IMG/VR virus record: IMGVR_UViG_3300022591_000013
Span: 1 to 53,153 of that record
Length of the DNA stretch: 53,153 nucleotides
From: a virus
Strand: one strand, 5' to 3'
The notes under the pieces were generated by a model. The model did not search any database, had not been told where the DNA came from, and saw only the letters and a list, made by a program, of their open reading frames with translations. A program made the translations under genes and the position numbers. Shown piece by piece: positions 2 to 53,153 of this stretch. The number at the start of each line of letters is the position of its first letter. Position 1 is the first letter of the stretch.

Positions 2-910
2 GTGGTTGAGATCCACCCGCAGATGTTGATCAGCTTCTTCTACAAGAAGCTCCTCGACCCGTTCATTCCATATTTCGACTATGGCAAGCCCAGGTCAATG
101 CAGTTCATCCTCGACAGCGGCGCATTCTCAGCACGCAATAGTGGGAAGGATATTGACCTGGACGAATATTGTGCGTTCCTGCATAACACCATCGAGTATT
201 GGGATCACTATGTGAATCTCGACGTCATTCCAGGAACCGGAGGCAGAGAGGTCACTGAAGCAGAGATCGACCGCGCAGCATCACTGGGATGGGAGAACTA
301 CAAGTACATGAAGGCGGACGGTCTGGATCCCATTCCCGTGTATCACTACGGCGAGCCGCGCAAGTGGCTGCACAACATGCTTGATGCAGGCTGTGACTAC
401 ATAGGTCTGGGAGGCATGGTAGGGCTTGACGGGACTGGCAGGAAGAGGTGGCTGGATAGCGTCTTCCGAGATATCACGGACGTCCATGGCAACGTGCTAG
501 TGAAGACACACGGTTTTGGCATGACCGCAGTGCCGCTCATGCTGCGATATCCGTGGTACAGCGTCGATAGCATCTCGTGGAAGATTCTCACGATCAACGG
601 GTACGTGGATGTGCCGCGCCTCGACGACAACGGGAAGTTCAGGTTCGACGTGCCATCGCGCACCTTCACGGTGTCGACACAGCACTCCCATTTCAAGCAG
701 CAGGGGAAGCACGCAACGCACGCAGGTATAACTGACAAGGAGGTCATAGAGCGATGGCTTGAGCATTGCGGCGTGACGTGGGGAGAGGTGGCAGAAGACT
801 ACACCGCACGTGCCCGCTGCAATCTAATTCTGTACAGCAGTTTCGCGAAGCACAAAAAGGAAGCAGGCGTCGTTGGCGCCCGCTTTGTCCAGGAATCATT
901 CTTCGACTAG
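2..910 (+). CDS. dpdA: DpdA-like DNA 7-deazaguanine transglycosylase, copy 2 (3' part; gene starts at 53014)
   Basis: Predicted to exchange guanine in phage DNA for a 7-deazaguanine base, as Tgt does in tRNA. Across the circular junction the gene runs from the ATG at 53014 to the TAG at 908-910, giving 316 aa; the window break removes the first 14 codons. Seen: a Tgt-type LDSGAFSA block with Asp52 (position of the Tgt general acid/base), a YIGLGGM phosphate/glycine loop near 148, KTHGFGM near 182, and YPWYSVDS with Asp203 (position of the Tgt nucleophile). The Tgt zinc cysteines are absent, as expected for phage DpdA. The upstream gene at 52139 is a paralogue sharing all these blocks, including a long KADGLDPIP-x-YHYGE-x-RKWL stretch. 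The stop lies 11 nt before the sliding clamp gene, so modification and replication genes are co-transcribed. The family call is fairly safe; the exact base inserted is unknown. Confidence 0.82.
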   Translation: MVEIHPQMLISFFYKKLLDPFIPYFDYGKPRSMQFILDSGAFSARNSGKDIDLDEYCAFLHNTIEYWDHYVNLDVIPGTGGREVTEAEIDRAASLGWENYKYMKADGLDPIPVYHYGEPRKWLHNMLDAGCDYIGLGGMVGLDGTGRKRWLDSVFRDITDVHGNVLVKTHGFGMTAVPLMLRYPWYSVDSISWKILTINGYVDVPRLDDNGKFRFDVPSRTFTVSTQHSHFKQQGKHATHAGITDKEVIERWLEHCGVTWGEVAEDYTARARCNLILYSSFAKHKKEAGVVGARFVQESFFD

Positions 911-2009: not shown

Positions 2010-4610
2010 GTGGGGTTCTTTTACAACGGGACGCGCGGGCAGGCGAAGAAGGCCACTCCGGATAGCAGGCGTATCCCGATCGACACAATGCAGAGGATGG
2101 GCTGTGACGCCTGTCCTCTGGACAAGGCGAAGCTGACGACTCCGAAGATGTCTCCTTCCGGCACGGAGCGCCCGCTGATCTACGTGCTGGGCGAGGCACC
2201 AGGGGAGAATGAAGACCTCGAGGGCGAGCCGTTCGTTGGCAAGTCTGGCCGACTGCTTCGATCGCAGTTCCCCGCCTCGGTTCTCAGGCGCGACGTTCGC
2301 ATAAGCAACACGATACGCTGCCGCCCTCCGGAGAACAGAACTCCGGAGATGCCTGAGATCGAATGCTGCCGCCTCAAGGGCCAAGAGGATATAGAGCGGA
2401 CTGCACCGAAGGTCATCGTCGGGACGGGCAACATCCCGCTCAACTGGGCGACGGGGCTTTCGTCTGTCACTGCCTGGCGCGGCAAGCTGATCGCCACTAA
2501 GATCGGCAACCACCCGTGTTGGTACTATCCCGTTCTACACCCGTCGTTTGTACTGCGTAAGCAAAGCAAGTATCGCAAGAGCGAGTTCGAGCTTTGCCTT
2601 GAGCACGACATCGGGTGGATCCTTGACAATGCAGAGCGACTTCCCAATGCCAAGGTGCATGAGGCCCCCTACGATCGCGGCATAGAGATCATCGAAGGCC
2701 AAACCCTAGCTGACTTCAACCGACTGGAGGACATTCTCAATGAGCTTGCGAAGGAACCCAGTGTTGCGATCGACCTTGAAACAGGAGATGGAAAGACAGG
2801 GCTGGGATGCCTGCGACCCTACGTGGATGATCCAAAGATTTTCACGTGCTCTATTGGGACATTCGATAGGGTGGCTGCGTTTCCGATGGATCACCCGCAG
2901 GGATGGAACAGCAGTCTTCGTCGCAGAGTCTGGGCACTTGTTGCGGAGTTCTTACTGTCATCTCGGCGCAAGATCGCCCATCACCTTGGATTCGAGCTTG
3001 AGTGGCTCACCTACTTCTACGGGCGGGAGCTTGCGAATCTGACCGAGTGGGAGGACACGATGGCCCAGGCGCATACGCTCGACGAGCGCATCGGAACCCT
3101 GAGCCTGGACGACCTCACTCGGCAGCATTTCGGGTTCTTCTTGAAAGCCCAGTCCAAGGTAGATCCAAAGCGGCTTCTCGAGTACCCCATCCGCGATGCA
3201 CTGCGCTACAACGGGATGGACTCGAAATGGACGCACCTGCTGTACGAGACGCAGCGGCCGCTGGTTGAGCGCGAGCCCAAGTTCATTCGGGAGTACGAAC
3301 GCAAGCTGAGACTTGAGCCCGCCCTAGTGCTGACACAACAGAAGGGCATCCTCGTTGATTTTGACTATGCCCGGGAGATGGAGACCAAGCTGGTCAAAGA
3401 CCTGGCGGGCATTGAGATGAAGCTGGAGAAGTGCCCCGAGATTGGCAAGTACAAAGCGCAGTTCGGAACGTTCCTGGCATCCTCACCTGACCACGTCCTG
3501 CGGTTGATGAAAGACGTATGCCACAGAGACGAGGTTCGCAAGGAGGAAGGCGGGCACACATCGGACGAAGCGGCGCTGTCGAAGATACCGGAGGGGGAGG
3601 TTCCGTCCGCCCCCTTGATCCTTGAGCACCGGTCCGTGATGAAGCTGGCTGGAACTTACATCCTGCCACTGCTGGCGGGCAGAAACGCGTACCGCGACGG
3701 CCGCATGCACCCGAAGTTCAGCAGCATGGTGGCGGTGACCGGACGCCTTGCATGCGAAGACCCCAACGCGCAGAACTATCCCAAGCGCAAGCACAAGGAG
3801 ATTCGCGGCGTTGTAGTTCCGCCGCCAGGCGAATGGATAGCAGCGGCCGACTATGGACAGCTAGAGGCCCGCGTTATCGGCATGGCAAGCCGGGATGATG
3901 CCTTGTGCAGGGCGCTATGGACGGGGTACGACATCCACGGCTTCTGGGCAAATCGTTTCATGGAGGAGTACCCGCGCATCAAGGATCGCATGATCAAGGA
4001 CTACAAGGTGGATGGTGACGATGCGAAGCTGATCCGCAAGAAGTTCCGAGACGAGATTAAGAACGGGTGGGTGTTCCCGCAGTTCTTCGGATCGGCAGTG
4101 CGGTCGTGTGCCCAGGCGTTGCAGGTTCCCGATATGATTGCCGAGGACTTGGGAAAGGAGTTTTGGGATGAGTTCAGGGGAGTGAAGAAGTGGCAGGACA
4201 AGCTCCTCAAAGACTATGAGAAGAACCTGTACGTCGAGACTCTGACCGGACGCAGGCGCCGCGGCCCGCAGTCTAAGAACGAGATCATCAATGCGCCAAT
4301 CCAGGGCACTGCTGCGGATATCGTGACGGAGTCCATGGCAGAGCTATCGGAGATGTCAGTCATCCTCGACGAGCTCGAGCTCCAACCGAACATCAATGTG
4401 CATGACGACCTGACCACCAACTTGCAGGATCCCGGACTGGAGGACCGCCTTGAGCAGATCGCCCTCGTTATGTGCAGGCACCGCTTCGACTTCATCAACG
4501 TGCCGCTGATCATCGAGTTCTCTGTCGGAGAGCGGTGGAATACGCTGCAAGAGATCGCTGTGTATCGCAGCAATGAGATGTATAGATTACCAAACCCCTA
4601 CGAGGCATGA
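2010..4610 (+). CDS. polA: Family 4-type uracil-DNA glycosylase fused to DNA polymerase I (family A)
   Basis: An 866-aa replicative polymerase with an N-terminal UDG module. GTG start at 2010 with AGGGAGAG just upstream. Residues about 30-200 look like an iron-sulfur family 4 UDG: C32-x2-C35, motif GEAPGENED near 62-70, IRCRPPENR followed about 15 residues later by ECC, and the HPS motif. A DEDD 3'-5' exonuclease follows (D255-x-E257 in AIDLE; IAHHLGFE; YNGMDS). The polymerase domain has motif A ADYGQLEARV with D614, an unusual O-helix region (IKNGWVFPQFFGS instead of the usual KxxNFGxxYG), the GRRRRGPQSKNEIINAPIQGTAAD block and motif C VHDD (D799). The N-terminus of SPO1-type phage polymerases is known to resemble family 4 UDG, so the fusion has precedent. 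Whether the UDG part is active is not shown. A dedicated clamp and loader flank it. Confidence 0.92.
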   Translation: MGFFYNGTRGQAKKATPDSRRIPIDTMQRMGCDACPLDKAKLTTPKMSPSGTERPLIYVLGEAPGENEDLEGEPFVGKSGRLLRSQFPASVLRRDVRISNTIRCRPPENRTPEMPEIECCRLKGQEDIERTAPKVIVGTGNIPLNWATGLSSVTAWRGKLIATKIGNHPCWYYPVLHPSFVLRKQSKYRKSEFELCLEHDIGWILDNAERLPNAKVHEAPYDRGIEIIEGQTLADFNRLEDILNELAKEPSVAIDLETGDGKTGLGCLRPYVDDPKIFTCSIGTFDRVAAFPMDHPQGWNSSLRRRVWALVAEFLLSSRRKIAHHLGFELEWLTYFYGRELANLTEWEDTMAQAHTLDERIGTLSLDDLTRQHFGFFLKAQSKVDPKRLLEYPIRDALRYNGMDSKWTHLLYETQRPLVEREPKFIREYERKLRLEPALVLTQQKGILVDFDYAREMETKLVKDLAGIEMKLEKCPEIGKYKAQFGTFLASSPDHVLRLMKDVCHRDEVRKEEGGHTSDEAALSKIPEGEVPSAPLILEHRSVMKLAGTYILPLLAGRNAYRDGRMHPKFSSMVAVTGRLACEDPNAQNYPKRKHKEIRGVVVPPPGEWIAAADYGQLEARVIGMASRDDALCRALWTGYDIHGFWANRFMEEYPRIKDRMIKDYKVDGDDAKLIRKKFRDEIKNGWVFPQFFGSAVRSCAQALQVPDMIAEDLGKEFWDEFRGVKKWQDKLLKDYEKNLYVETLTGRRRRGPQSKNEIINAPIQGTAADIVTESMAELSEMSVILDELELQPNINVHDDLTTNLQDPGLEDRLEQIALVMCRHRFDFINVPLIIEFSVGERWNTLQEIAVYRSNEMYRLPNPYEA

Positions 4611-40399: not shown

Positions 40400-40852
40400 T
40401 TAGAAGCCGTTGTCGGTGAATGCGTCGAGATCGTAAGACGCAGAGCACTTGCGGGTCTCTTCGATCCGAACCTTGATCAACAAGCAGCCAGTCCCCTTCA
40501 ACTGCTGAGGACCAACTTCAAGCACAAGATAGCGCGCCATGTTCTCTGCCGTAGGGTTGAACGGAACCCAGACAACCCCCTGCGGATCTGCCATCGTCAG
40601 CGCATCGCGTAGCGGGTCGGAATCAAAAACCAGGAACTTGTGATCCCAGTGCTCCTCTAGCCAAGCGCAGAGGTGCGACTTGATCGCGGAGAAGTCCAGG
40701 ACGCGCCCGACTTCATCGACGCCCCCGTCCGCGTCAATGACGGTGAAGTGGATGCGGTAGTTGTGCCCGTGAAGGTGCTCGCACTTGCCGCCCTGCCCTA
40801 CGACCCGGTGGCCGCAGGAAATGTCGTGGTAACGCTCTGCCGTAGTGCTCAT
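40400..40852 (-). CDS. queD: QueD, 6-carboxytetrahydropterin synthase
   Basis: A 150-aa enzyme that converts dihydroneopterin triphosphate (the FolE product) to 6-carboxy-5,6,7,8-tetrahydropterin, the second step to preQ0. Zinc ligands H15 (CGHRV), H28 and H30 (HLHGHNY) and the catalytic C24 are visible, followed by VLDFSAIKSHL, EEHWDHKFLV, PTAENMARYL and RIEETRKCSASY, all canonical. The start is the ATG at 40852, with AAGGAG upstream; a longer in-frame extension to 41029 is rejected. It lies apart from folE and queC and is transcribed from a divergent promoter region. Confidence 0.92.
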   Translation of the reverse strand: MSTTAERYHDISCGHRVVGQGGKCEHLHGHNYRIHFTVIDADGGVDEVGRVLDFSAIKSHLCAWLEEHWDHKFLVFDSDPLRDALTMADPQGVVWVPFNPTAENMARYLVLEVGPQQLKGTGCLLIKVRIEETRKCSASYDLDAFTDNGF

Positions 40853-41849: not shown

Positions 41850-42572
41850 ATGTTCGGCACAAACCCAATTCGGAAGCAGGATCTCAAGGACGGCGCAACG
41901 CTCCGCGTGCAGGAGATATTCAAGACGGTGCAAGGCGAAGGGCCGCATGCGGGGCGACCAGCAATCTTCGTTCGGCTGGCAGGCTGTAACCTGCGCTGCA
42001 CCTTCTGCGATACAGACTTCGAGAGCGGCTACCAAAACCAGCTCTCAATCCCCGACATCATGCAGATGATCGCCAATGCCAAACAGGAGTCGCACATATC
42101 CCTGGTCGTGATCACGGGCGGCGAGCCGCTGCTTCAGAACATCATCCCGCTGATCAAGCTCCTTCGTCGGTCCGCATACGATGTGCAGATAGAGACGGCC
42201 GGGACGGTCTGGATCCCCGAGCTCGATCAGCTTCTGTTCTTCCTAGGTGCAGATTCGCTGGTGTGCTCGCCCAAGACCCCTAAGATCCACCCGGACGTGT
42301 CGCGCATGTGCAGTCACTGGAAATACATCGTCAGTGAGACGAACGTGTCGGACGAGGACGGACTGCCAAACATGAGCACCCAGCCTGGCGCTGCCAAGGA
42401 AGGCCCGCTGTACCGCCCGCCGCCCAACTCCCACGGCGTGATCTGGGTGCAGCCGCTTGACTCCGGCGACAAGGAGCAGAACATACGGAACCTGTACGCC
42501 TCGATCGAATCCTGCATGAAGTTTGGGCACCGCCTGTCCGTGCAGATCCACAAAGTGATCGGGCTCCCGTGA
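41850..42572 (+). CDS. queE: QueE, 7-carboxy-7-deazaguanine synthase
   Basis: A 240-aa radical SAM enzyme that turns 6-carboxytetrahydropterin (from QueD) into 7-carboxy-7-deazaguanine. The cluster motif C46-x3-C50-x2-C53 (CNLRCTFC) is visible, with the typical QEIFKTVQGEGPHAGRPAIF upstream, VVITGGEPLLQ near 88 and SPKTPKIHPD near 140. AAAGGAAT precedes the ATG. The stop overlaps the GTG of the flap nuclease gene. Confidence 0.94.
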   Translation: MFGTNPIRKQDLKDGATLRVQEIFKTVQGEGPHAGRPAIFVRLAGCNLRCTFCDTDFESGYQNQLSIPDIMQMIANAKQESHISLVVITGGEPLLQNIIPLIKLLRRSAYDVQIETAGTVWIPELDQLLFFLGADSLVCSPKTPKIHPDVSRMCSHWKYIVSETNVSDEDGLPNMSTQPGAAKEGPLYRPPPNSHGVIWVQPLDSGDKEQNIRNLYASIESCMKFGHRLSVQIHKVIGLP

Positions 42573-49559: not shown

Positions 49560-50507
49560 ATGTCCATAATCAGCCTCGACAGATGCAAGGCCGCAGCAGA
49601 ATCCTTGGGCCGTCGCATCAACGAGCTCTACGGGATGAACCCCATGAACATCTGGGGCATCCCGCGCGGCGGGTTCAACGCGGCGATGCTGCTTAGTCAG
49701 AAGTTCTGGCACCTCAAGATGGTCGAGGATCCATTGCATGCAACTCTTGCGATTGACGACATCGTCGATACCGGAAGCACCGCCCAGCAGGTCATGCAGT
49801 TCTACGGCCTCCCAACTGCGACGCTGTTCGCCCACGACTTCAAGATTTTGGGAGACGAGGTGATCGCGTATGGGGAGCTGCTCACCAAGGAAGACGGGTT
49901 CGTCAATTTCCCGTGGGAGTTCATGTTCAAGAGCAACGACTTCGACTCCGCACACGACTCGGTGGTCCGCATGTTGCAGGCAATCGGCGAGGACCCTGCC
50001 CGCGAAGGGCTCAAGGAAACGCCCAAGCGCGTTGTCAAGGCGTGGGGCGAGTGGTTCAAAGGGTACGGGCAGAACCCCGCCGACGTGCTCAAGGTATTCG
50101 AGGATGGTGCCGAGGGGTATGGCGAGATGGTGCTCCTCACGAACATCCCTGTCTATTCGCACTGCGAGCACCACATCACCCCCTTCGTCGGCGTAGCGCA
50201 CGTTGCCTACATTCCCAACGGCAAGATCGTCGGCTTGTCCAAGATCGCCCGCGTCGTCGAGATATTCTCCCGCCGTCTGCAAGTGCAGGAGCGACTGACC
50301 AACCAGATCGCCGACGCATTGGTTGCGAACTTAGAGCCGCAGGGGGTGGCAGTAGTCATTCAGGCGAAGCACTTCTGCATGGCTACCCGAGGCGTCAAGA
50401 TGCCGAACGTTGATACGCACACCTCTGCAATGCGCGGCGCCTTCTTCGATAGCGCAGCAACGCGCGCGGAGTTTATGAGTCTGATTCGCGCTGCTCATCA
50501 GCCATGA
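49560..50507 (+). CDS. folE: Phosphoribosyltransferase-GTP cyclohydrolase I (FolE) fusion
   Basis: A 315-aa two-domain protein. Residues 1-120 look like a small purine-type phosphoribosyltransferase: [15 protein letters not shown] near 31 and the PRPP loop [12 protein letters not shown] (D66, D67), ending VNFPWE near 115-120, as small xanthine/guanine-type PRTases do. Residues about 125-315 are Fol[14 protein letters not shown] (zinc C202 and H205), [20 protein letters not shown] and HFCMATRGV (C273). FolE turns GTP into dihydroneopterin triphosphate, the first step to preQ0. Start ATG 49560, with GAGAGGAA upstream. First gene of the modification operon; its stop overlaps the next ATG. Confidence 0.92.
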
Positions 50508-50755
50508 AAGTATTGGCCTATGATCTGGACGGAACTTTGCTTGCAAGAGAAAAGCCGATCCAGCACATGATCGAGGAGGTGAATGCTGCGTTCGAAGATG
50601 CAGATAATTTCATCGTCATCTACACAGCACGAAGCTACACCCTTTTTCATCAGACGAGATCACTTCTTCTGAAGTATGGCATCAAGCATCACGCCCTCGT
50701 CATGGAGAAGATGCGCGCCAACTGCTACATCGATGATCGTGCGAGGAAGCCATGA
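50504..50755 (+). CDS. Minimal HAD-superfamily phosphatase-like protein
   Basis: An 83-aa protein with all HAD landmarks in miniature: DLDGTLL (D7, D9), IYTARS as motif II, the Lys of MEKMRANC as motif III, and YIDDRA as motif IV. There is no cap domain. ATG overlaps the FolE stop and its TGA overlaps the next ATG. The place in the 7-deazaguanine operon suggests a phosphate-handling step or nucleotide housekeeping; the substrate is unknown. Confidence 0.75.
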
Positions 50756-51423
50756 GAACAGTCCAGCTGTATGGAGGCGGCATTGACAGCCTCTGCATCT
50801 CCTACCTGGTAAAGCCTGACGTGAAGGTGTATTTCAATCTGGGTACAGAGGAAGCACCGCATGAGGAGAAGGTCGCCCGCAGGAGAGGTGCCATCATCGA
50901 CTATCGTTTCACCCTTAAGGACCAGGTTCTTCCGAATAAGATACTGCCTCTGCGTAACCTGCTCCTTGTCGCTGGGGCTGCGTACTACGGCAACTACATC
51001 ATCGTCGGAAGCACTGCCGGAGATACTACGAAGGACAAGGACGAGAGGTTCATGGTCCTATGCACGGAACTTCTACAGCATGTTCTTGTCGGAGATCCTG
51101 ACAAGTCCTTGCCTTGGTTCAACGATGGTGTTGCCGTGGTCGCGCCTCGCCGCAACTCAACCAAGGCCGAGCTAGTTCGGGAATACCTTACCGCAGGAGG
51201 GAGCGCTCAAGACCTCATCATCAACTCAAGGTCGTGCTATCACAGCGGCGCTTTGGAATGCGGCGTCTGCCGAAGCTGTGTCCGGAAGTATGTAGCATTG
51301 AAGTTGAATGGCATCACCACCGAGGCATTTCAAAGCAAACCTGACCTTCAGGAAGCGTATGACTATGCCTTATCTCACAACCGCGGCCGCGAGGCCGCTG
51401 AAATCAAGGAGTGCTTCAAATGA
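50752..51423 (+). CDS. QueC-like PP-loop ATPase, copy 1
   Basis: A 223-aa member of the QueC (7-cyano-7-deazaguanine synthase) family. PP-loop GGGIDS (8-13) in place of the usual SGGxDS, LPLRNLLLVAGAAYYGNYII near 66 (QueC GRN region), and the zinc site C162, C170, C173, C176 (SCYHSG...CGVCRSC). It is followed at once by a second QueC-like gene. The altered PP-loop and LPLRN in place of the GRN motif suggest specialisation, for example stopping at the amide or acting on another substrate. Confidence 0.8.
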   Translation: MRTVQLYGGGIDSLCISYLVKPDVKVYFNLGTEEAPHEEKVARRRGAIIDYRFTLKDQVLPNKILPLRNLLLVAGAAYYGNYIIVGSTAGDTTKDKDERFMVLCTELLQHVLVGDPDKSLPWFNDGVAVVAPRRNSTKAELVREYLTAGGSAQDLIINSRSCYHSGALECGVCRSCVRKYVALKLNGITTEAFQSKPDLQEAYDYALSHNRGREAAEIKECFK

Positions 51424-52121
51424 AGAGAGTTATCATGGCAACTGGCGGCATGGACAGCACCGTGCTGCTGTATATGAGCATGCTGGTCGACAAGGTCAGG
51501 CCGCAGATCGTCACCGTCGATTACGGGCATCTCGCATTCAAGAAGCAGCTCGAAATGATCCAGCATCACGTTGACATCCTGAAGCTGGATTCGCCGCAGG
51601 TGATCACCATCAACTATCAGGGCTGGCAGAAGAAGCCAGCCCTCTTCTCCGGCACTGGCCTTCGGGATACCGATGCTGACCACCCGATGAAGGGCAAGCG
51701 CATCTTCGACGACCAGGAGATGCGATACGCCGAGATGTTCGTCGAAGGCAGGAACCTGATCATGGCGGCGTACTGCATGGCCTACGCCAGCAGCATTGGC
51801 GCCGACGAGCTGTGGGCAGGCTATCTCCGCGGGCCGGCTGAGTGGGCGAACCAACGCAGCTACAAGATGATCACCGGCGACAACAGCCCGCAGTTCGTCG
51901 ATGCCATGAATACCATGAGCTTCATGGGGTTCAGCCATCAAGTCCGCATGCGCGCCCCTTACTACGAGGGACGCCTCAGCAAGAACGATGTTGCCAAGCT
52001 CGGTGCCAAGCTCGGAGTTGATCTCAGTCTTACGCACAGCTGCTACTGGCCCGAAGCTTGCGGCGAGTGCGATAACTGCCTGCTACGAGCCGAAGCACTG
52101 CGCCGGCTCACTCAGGTCTAA
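51420..52121 (+). CDS. queC: QueC-like 7-cyano-7-deazaguanine synthase, copy 2
   Basis: A 233-aa PP-loop enzyme. Motif ATGGMDSTVLL (PP-loop TGGMDS at 8-13), VEGRNLIMAAYCMAYASSIG near 108, a GADELWAG strand, and zinc site C208, C214, C217, C220 (SCYWPEACGECDNC). This copy is closer to canonical QueC than the one at 50752. QueC uses ATP and ammonia to convert 7-carboxy-7-deazaguanine through the amide (ADG) to preQ0. ATG at 51420 overlaps the stop of copy 1. Confidence 0.87.
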   Translation: MKRVIMATGGMDSTVLLYMSMLVDKVRPQIVTVDYGHLAFKKQLEMIQHHVDILKLDSPQVITINYQGWQKKPALFSGTGLRDTDADHPMKGKRIFDDQEMRYAEMFVEGRNLIMAAYCMAYASSIGADELWAGYLRGPAEWANQRSYKMITGDNSPQFVDAMNTMSFMGFSHQVRMRAPYYEGRLSKNDVAKLGAKLGVDLSLTHSCYWPEACGECDNCLLRAEALRRLTQV

Positions 52122-52138: not shown

Positions 52139-53017
52139 ATGATCTTCTGGCCTGGTGGCACCATCCGCAGTGATCTCTACAAGTCGCTGCGGATGGCAGA
52201 CTTTCGACTGCACCTATTCAGCTTCTACCACGAGCACAACCGCCGCTTCGACGAGATGAAGGATCCGATGCTGGACTTCAGATACTTCGCGGACAGCGGC
52301 GCCTTCTCTGCCTGGACTCGCGGCGACCCAATCGACATAGAGGAGTACAGCGCGTTCGTTCGCTATCACGCGGGATACCTCGAGGCGTACGCTGCGCTTG
52401 ACGTGATCCCCGAGTCGACGCATCCATCCGAACTTGAGCGGGCAGCAGGCAGGTCGTGGCAGAACTATCTCGACATGAAGGCAGACGGCCTCGATCCCAT
52501 TCCCATCTACCACTACGGAGAGTCGCGCAAGTGGCTGGACATGCTGCTAGGAAGCGGCTGCACATACATAGGGCTGGGAGGCATGGGAAATGCGAACAGA
52601 GCCGAGCGCGCTGCATGGCTGGACAGCGTCTTCCACGATCTGCCCGACGGCATCAAGGTGCATGGGTTCGGGGTATCTGCAATCAACCTCCTCTTCCGGT
52701 ATCCGTGGTACAGCGCAGACAGCATGACGTGGCGCCTTGCCGCGAACAACGGGAACGTATTCATCCCGCTGCACGACGGGACGCAGTTCCTTTACGACCG
52801 ACCGCCATACCTTGTGCATACCAAGGAACTTCTGACCACAGCATCGGACGAGATCGACGAGTGGCTGCGTATTGTTGATACAGATCGTCAGAAGCTGTTC
52901 GACGATTACCGCCACCGCGGCGCCTGCAATGCGGTATTCATGCGCGAGGTCACTGCACACCATGCAGAGCACGGCCCTAAGAAGCGCAGCAGCGCACAAC
53001 AAGGGTTCTTCAAATGA
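52139..53017 (+). CDS. dpdA: DpdA-like DNA 7-deazaguanine transglycosylase, copy 1
   Basis: A 292-aa Tgt-fold protein predicted to insert a 7-deazaguanine into phage DNA. FADSGAFSA carries Asp52 (general acid/base position), YIGLGGM near 143 forms the glycine loop, KVHGFGV lies near 173, and YPWYSADS carries Asp194 (nucleophile position). No Tgt-type zinc cysteines. It is a divergent paralogue of the next gene, which it overlaps (ATGA at 53014-53017). It follows the QueC genes in the same operon. GGAA near 52128 is a weak SD. Both DpdA copies keep both key Asp residues, so both may be active. Confidence 0.83.
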   Translation: MIFWPGGTIRSDLYKSLRMADFRLHLFSFYHEHNRRFDEMKDPMLDFRYFADSGAFSAWTRGDPIDIEEYSAFVRYHAGYLEAYAALDVIPESTHPSELERAAGRSWQNYLDMKADGLDPIPIYHYGESRKWLDMLLGSGCTYIGLGGMGNANRAERAAWLDSVFHDLPDGIKVHGFGVSAINLLFRYPWYSADSMTWRLAANNGNVFIPLHDGTQFLYDRPPYLVHTKELLTTASDEIDEWLRIVDTDRQKLFDDYRHRGACNAVFMREVTAHHAEHGPKKRSSAQQGFFK

Positions 53018-53153
53018 TTCTGTGGATCGGCACTGGGCAGGAGTACAAGGAGCTGGTGGTTGAGATCCACCCGCAGATGTTGATCAGCTTCTTCTACAAG
53101 AAGCTCCTCGACCCGTTCATTCCATATTTCGACTATGGCAAGCCCAGGTCAAT
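53014..53153 (+). CDS. dpdA: DpdA-like transglycosylase, copy 2 (5' part; continues at 2)
   Basis: The first 41 nt (53014-53054) add the N-terminus MILWIGTGQEYKEL, after which the sequence repeats bases 1-99. The reading frame joins that at position 2 exactly (53056 corresponds to 2). See the entry at 2-910 for the motifs. ATG overlaps the stop of copy 1. Confidence 0.8.
   Translation, partial: MILWIGTGQEYKELVVEIHPQMLISFFYKKLLDPFIPYFDYGKPRS
53055..53153 (+). repeat. 99-bp terminal direct repeat identical to 1-99
   Basis: The last 99 bases equal the first 99 exactly. The repeat is inside an open gene that is intact only when the ends are joined. This indicates a circular map of 53,054 bp. 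Confidence 0.97.

Follow-up and report, generated by a model that had tools for sequence, protein, structure and literature searches.

The window, by which we mean the whole stretch of DNA that was analysed, is a phage record of 53,153 bp with a direct terminal repeat of 99 bp (positions 1-99 are identical to 53055-53153), which gives a circular or terminally redundant map. On its plus strand lie two tandem genes of the DNA-guanine transglycosylase family (phrog_887). DpdA-A occupies 52139-53017 and encodes 292 aa. DpdA-B overlaps it by an ATGA stop/start (53014-53017) and crosses the circular junction, with its first 46 codons at 53014-53153 and the remainder at 1-910, where codons 15-316 are read from base 2 and the stop is found at 908-910. 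Joining the reading frame via the terminal repeat yielded a protein of 316 aa. The interval 52139-53153 given for the pair in an earlier note on this DNA thus contains DpdA-A and the first 46 codons of DpdA-B, while the rest of DpdA-B continues at 100-910. The same note deduced from the ATGA overlap that both proteins are made in equal amounts; the overlap is present, but it shows only probable translational coupling. The junction between both genes is real, because a second contig (IMGVR_UViG_3300022594_000325, hereafter L003), which is 99.9% identical to the window across 8.9 kb, carries DpdA-A and DpdA-B unbroken, the latter at L003:2913-3863. An assembly artefact at the circular junction was therefore ruled out. 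Nine differences separated the window from L003. Four of them fell within 32 bp of DpdA-A (52355-52386), affecting three codons, all of which changed the amino acid, and three fell within 15 bp of the polymerase gene (3277-3291). These clusters may represent clustered variation or assembly noise.

Genes of preQ0 synthesis lie upstream of the pair. On the plus strand, we found FolE (GTP cyclohydrolase I, 49560-50507; PF01227, 4.6e-73), a small HAD-like or polynucleotide-kinase-phosphatase-like protein of 83 aa (50504-50755; PF08282, 2.3e-5, above the cut-off; phrog_1238 and phrog_415), a first QueC-like PP-loop protein (50752-51423; PF06508, 35.5 bits with a cut-off of 22) and a QueC of the 7-cyano-7-deazaguanine synthase family (51411-52121; PF06508, 101.6 bits). 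QueE, a radical SAM protein of the 7-carboxy-7-deazaguanine synthase family, was located at 41850-42572 (plus strand; phrog_2076, 9.1e-49) and QueD, of the PTPS family, at 40430-40828 on the minus strand (PF01242, 83.3 bits, above the cut-off). Judged by these profile matches, the genome encodes a complete preQ0 pathway consisting of FolE, QueD, QueE and QueC. QueF, ArcS and a glutamine-amidotransferase partner were not found among the scanned genes, which were part of the window's genes. In FolE, residues about 52-124 form an N-terminal stretch that resembles phosphoribosyltransferases (NCBIfam match). The cassette formed by the HAD-like, QueC-like PP-loop and QueC genes (50504-52121) is conserved in two other loci (L040:3089-5071 and L066:2739-4359). 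Near the DpdA of L015 and L029, the sole relative found of the window's QueC proteins was the first, QueC-like one. Downstream of DpdA-B lie a DnaN-like clamp and then a family A DNA polymerase (2010-4610). This polymerase presents an N-terminal domain of the uracil-DNA-glycosylase superfamily, and a similar protein occurs across the DpdA phage group.

Both the DpdA family and the preQ0 pathway are already known. The phage DpdAs of Enterobacteria phage 9g and Escherichia phage CAjan (Hutinet 2019, PMC6884629) belong to the same family, share its motifs, including the histidine discussed below, and are likewise encoded beside folE and queD, upstream of clamp and DNA polymerase genes; however, these phages have one DpdA gene whereas the window has two. 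Relatives with the same layout as the window (helicase, primase, sigma-like protein, phrog_38529 protein, FolE, DpdA, clamp and polymerase) also carry a single DpdA. Among them, Edwardsiella phage vB_EpM_ZHS and a single-copy clade (L005-L015 and L024-L035) have the nearest DpdAs, ZHS gp65 being 48% identical to DpdA-B and 39% identical to DpdA-A.

Family assignment and catalytic residues of DpdA-A and DpdA-B

The phrog_887 profile (queuine tRNA-ribosyltransferase) matched DpdA-A and DpdA-B with E values of 8.8e-40 and 7.5e-48, respectively. Neither protein was detected above the cut-off by Pfam or NCBIfam models and no significant match was obtained for either with PDB sequence profiles, so we relied on PHROG together with fold evidence. 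AlphaFold2 models reached a pLDDT of 85.6 for DpdA-A and 84.7 for DpdA-B. Foldseek searches with the DpdA-A model retrieved TGT 2nso (2.4e-7) and the bacterial DpdA 7ui4 (8.8e-5), and the best PDB match of the DpdA-B model was TGT 4gh1, with a weaker value of 1.6e-3. In these models, both proteins have a TGT-like (beta/alpha)8 fold. A profile alignment with the solved structure 7ui4, not significant alone (E = 1.5), paired DSGAF with GDCGAF, LDVI with LDHI, LGGM with MGGM, VHGFG with VHLLG and VDS with IDS. The bacterial enzyme thus shares the fold and the aligned motifs, but it has 436 aa and comes from a bacterial DNA-modification cluster. On this basis, both proteins are predicted to be DpdAs that exchange G for a 7-deazaguanine in DNA.

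The likeness between both proteins is not due to chance, since they are 37% identical with an E value of 5e-66, and DpdA-B is 45% identical to DpdA-A across residues 46-291 of the latter. Identity is unevenly distributed. Numbered on DpdA-A, it amounts to 21% in residues 1-50, 55% in residues 51-130, 53% in residues 131-210 and 24% in residues 211-292, so that divergence is concentrated at both ends of a core (residues 51-210) that is about 54% identical. The strong divergence that had been noticed in the C-terminal part was thus confirmed, and it extends likewise to the N-terminus. The shared blocks named in the earlier note were all located, at the following positions in DpdA-A and DpdA-B, respectively: DSGAF (52/52), KADGLDPIP (114/118), YHYGE (124/128), GLGGM (145/149), HGFG (175/184) and YPWYS-x-DS (188/197). 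Asp52 carries the same number in both, as the note had stated.

Its central claim, that these are two divergent tandem DpdA paralogues with intact catalytic residues, also stood. In an alignment of 50 DpdA sequences, 14 out of 14 family-invariant residues were kept by both proteins: D52, S53, G54, S57, A58, Y70 and D88, with the same numbering in both, and H125/H129, H175/H184, S192/S201, D194/D203, S195/S204, W198/W207 and G205/G214 (DpdA-A/DpdA-B). They include both TGT catalytic aspartates and the base-pocket aspartate (D52, D194 and D88 in DpdA-A; D52, D203 and D88 in DpdA-B). The aspartate of the DSGAF block in DpdA-A (Asp52, 52292-52294, plus strand) aligns with the TGT-type general acid/base and with GDCGAF in 7ui4, while that of YPWYSADS (Asp194, 52718-52720, plus strand) aligns with the TGT-type nucleophile and with SIDST in 7ui4. 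The DpdA-B equivalents, Asp52 in DSGAF (113-115, plus strand) and Asp203 in YPWYSVDS (566-568, plus strand), occupy the same invariant columns. These roles are the ones that we take the aspartates to play from established TGT chemistry. The motifs therefore do not support that one copy is dead. At the positions aligned with the base pocket (D52, D88, GLGGM and HGFG), both proteins are identical, and we predict that they share the pocket itself as well as the TGT-type exchange reaction. Position 196 of the 9g enzyme, a histidine within KVHGFG, corresponds to H175 in DpdA-A and H184 in DpdA-B. The DpdA2 type (Vibrio phage nt-1) is distinguished from DpdA by the lack of this histidine (PMC6884629), which sets both proteins apart from that type.

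Outside the invariant positions, the two copies differ in how far they depart from their relatives. DpdA-A lacks the VSxxxPKxxxxGKH loop that follows the second catalytic aspartate in DpdA-B (residues about 238-250) and nearly all relatives, as well as two short conserved insertions, and DpdA-B carries R59 at a position that is W in 96% of the family. Of the 115 positions that the single-copy clade conserves, DpdA-A departed alone at 25, DpdA-B alone at 10 and both at 16. Because so many of these departures, including the lost loop, are private to DpdA-A, a reduced activity of this copy is possible.

Origin of the pair and two-DpdA loci in other phages

DpdA-A and DpdA-B grouped as sisters within the single-copy phage clade in three trees (support 100/96, 96/80 and 98/75, the last from the careful tree on a shorter alignment), while a quick tree left their fork open. 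These topologies indicate that the pair arose when one phage DpdA gene was duplicated in tandem inside that clade. Acquisition of either gene from elsewhere found no support, as both grouped together in the three trees, although both branches are long. Branch lengths ranged from 0.72 to 1.36 for DpdA-A and from 0.45 to 0.97 for DpdA-B, exceeding those of the single-copy relatives several-fold, which points to fast divergence after the duplication.

According to the earlier note, no phage system with this arrangement is known to have been described. Among the papers covered by our literature search, none described two DpdAs in one phage, and the statement held for these papers; sequence records, however, contained such tandems in Microbacterium phage Megan (gp2/gp3) and about nine other viral contigs, which rules out that the arrangement is unique to the window. 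The Megan record (NC_073368), annotated gene by gene, already contained it. In a preQ0 operon, this cultured phage carries two intact DpdA genes in tandem, which likewise overlap by ATGA; its copies are 46% identical, are followed by a QueC-like protein of 455 aa and arose by a duplication of their own within the DpdA branch of actinophages.

Our scan covered 375 loci with short flanks, taken from collection scans of at most 80 loci each and comprising 221 DpdAs that were distinct under the key applied. Among the loci so covered, 15 had more than one DpdA match, a ratio (15/221) that, given this sampling, is descriptive only. Ten further phages or contigs presented two-DpdA neighbourhoods, with complete pairs in L036, L043, L251, L259, L297, L302, L305, L317/L339, L320 and Megan, whereas the neighbours were truncated, degenerate or split in L058, L102 and L119. 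In most pairs, the stop codon of one copy overlapped the start codon of the next (ATGA or a single base in common), whereas the copies of L297 lie 1.3 kb apart. In every complete pair, the equivalents of D52, D88 and D194 were kept by both copies. According to the trees, the duplication occurred in place for DpdA-A/DpdA-B, L043 (with L036), L317, L302, L320 and Megan, while the two copies came from different clades in L251, L259, L297 and L305. Duplication thus occurred independently at least five times, and four of the pairs are of mixed clade. Other members of the clades that supplied the DpdA types of the mixed pairs were found as single copies. When L317 was compared with L339, the dN/dS values for the two copies were 0.135 and 0.083, indicating that purifying selection maintains both. 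L036 and L043 (IMG/VR) have the same layout as the window and two intact tandem DpdAs that originated in an independent duplication, and a barrel segment appears shifted to their C-terminus. Between its two intact copies, L036 contains an extra DpdA gene (L036:7099-8196) that has lost both catalytic aspartates (D52 to T and D194 to S, with DSGAF changed to TSGAH and VDS to ASC).

Possible roles of two DpdAs in one phage

We propose, at about even probability, that two separately active DpdAs insert a single kind of base, but in differing DNA contexts. FolE, QueD, QueE and QueC would produce preQ0, possibly modified further, and DpdA-A and DpdA-B would probably be translated from one coupled message. 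Each would then replace guanines of the phage DNA with that base through TGT-type double displacement, using catalytic and base-binding residues common to both proteins. Their N- and C-terminal parts, which have diverged, for instance through the loop lost by DpdA-A, would serve to recognise distinct DNA contexts, which would likely extend protection to more guanines or restriction motifs. A single DpdA is already context-limited, with GA and GGC reported as the contexts of CAjan (PMC8306585, citing Kot 2020). This limitation, the intact pairs and the mixed-clade pairs together favour two active enzymes with different contexts. In particular, the pairs of L251, L259, L297 and L305, whose members come from otherwise single-copy clades, argue for independent function. 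That the two enzymes may read two sequence contexts appears the best-supported among the options that the earlier note had raised.

Against this proposal stand the departures private to DpdA-A and its three codons that differ from L003, all with a changed amino acid. The diverged C-terminal part could equally be a protein-protein interface. DpdA-A and DpdA-B might form an obligate or preferred heterodimer in which catalysis falls to one subunit and placement of the DNA to the other, as in TGT dimers acting on tRNA, and the ATGA overlap and the divergent ends, which could hold the interface, would fit this arrangement. TGTs act as dimers and the eukaryotic enzyme is the QTRT1/QTRT2 heterodimer (PMC6165067), likewise two TGT paralogues in one organism. 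The extra L036 copy resembles QTRT2 in lacking both catalytic aspartates and is possibly an inactive subunit of that kind. However, the QTRT enzyme acts on tRNA, and both active sites are intact in DpdA-A and DpdA-B and in all other complete pairs, unlike QTRT2. That both active sites have been retained in many independent pairs speaks against a division of labour with a degenerate subunit, and the origin of several pairs from different clades, together with the separated genes of L297, argues against an obligate partner. The analogy with QTRT1/QTRT2 drawn in the earlier note was weakened accordingly, and we consider a heterodimer unlikely. A benefit of redundancy or dosage, in which the duplication was kept as more DpdA helps while one copy drifts, seems quite unlikely to us. 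The long branches of both proteins and the loop loss of DpdA-A would fit relaxed constraint, yet every catalytic position has been kept despite the large divergence, intact pairs recur in many lineages and both L317/L339 copies are under strong purifying selection. The proposal that the two enzymes insert different 7-deazaguanines (e.g. preQ0 and its precursor in carboxy or amido form), with the two QueC-like proteins as their source, draws on the presence of two such genes in the window and on HVTV-1 and nt-1, single viruses with several 7-deazaguanines (PMC8306585). It received little support: the base-pocket residues are the same in both proteins, the HAD/QueC-like/QueC cassette accompanies a single DpdA in L040 and L066, and a single QueC accompanies the two DpdAs of contigs L036 and L043 in the stretch covered. 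QueC-like and DpdA genes do not vary together in number, and we regard the insertion of two bases as improbable.

By selecting the guanines that are replaced in the phage genome, DpdA also determines which restriction enzymes are blocked. The repeated occurrence of two-DpdA operons suggests that the context range of one enzyme is often insufficient. Because the same doubling arose repeatedly in other phages, it is probably a useful trick, e.g. for marking more kinds of DNA sites, rather than a one-off. More broadly, we tentatively suggest, at somewhat less than even odds, that phages have repeatedly evolved two-enzyme DNA transglycosylase systems, in which one 7-deazaguanine is written into two distinct motif sets or the two enzymes work as a heterodimer, with an inactive scaffold or regulatory copy in some operons such as L036. 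The two-DpdA operons constitute natural paralogue pairs for mapping target choice by part swaps and, as Megan is a cultured isolate, the question is directly testable.

Other DpdA-related elements in the compared loci

Arthrobacter phage Sonali gp81 (L130:915-1532), a protein of 205 aa annotated as queuine tRNA-ribosyltransferase, lacks DSGAF and was excluded from the count of second DpdAs; by its sequence, it is probably a different or diverged TGT-like protein. An element of about 60 aa (MKIYLATW...RLISYYFL...YIKTG) was found either as a separate small gene beside DpdA (L051:6889-7068, L068:7204-7371, L075:7450-7650 and L090:7029-7208) or fused to the DpdA C-terminus (L036 and L043), in association with DpdAs whose N-terminus is the DSGAF strand itself. 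A weak HMM match (best CRB2 3e-5) relates the element to the strand-helix-strand unit that opens canonical DpdAs, which suggests a split or circularly permuted barrel in these proteins.
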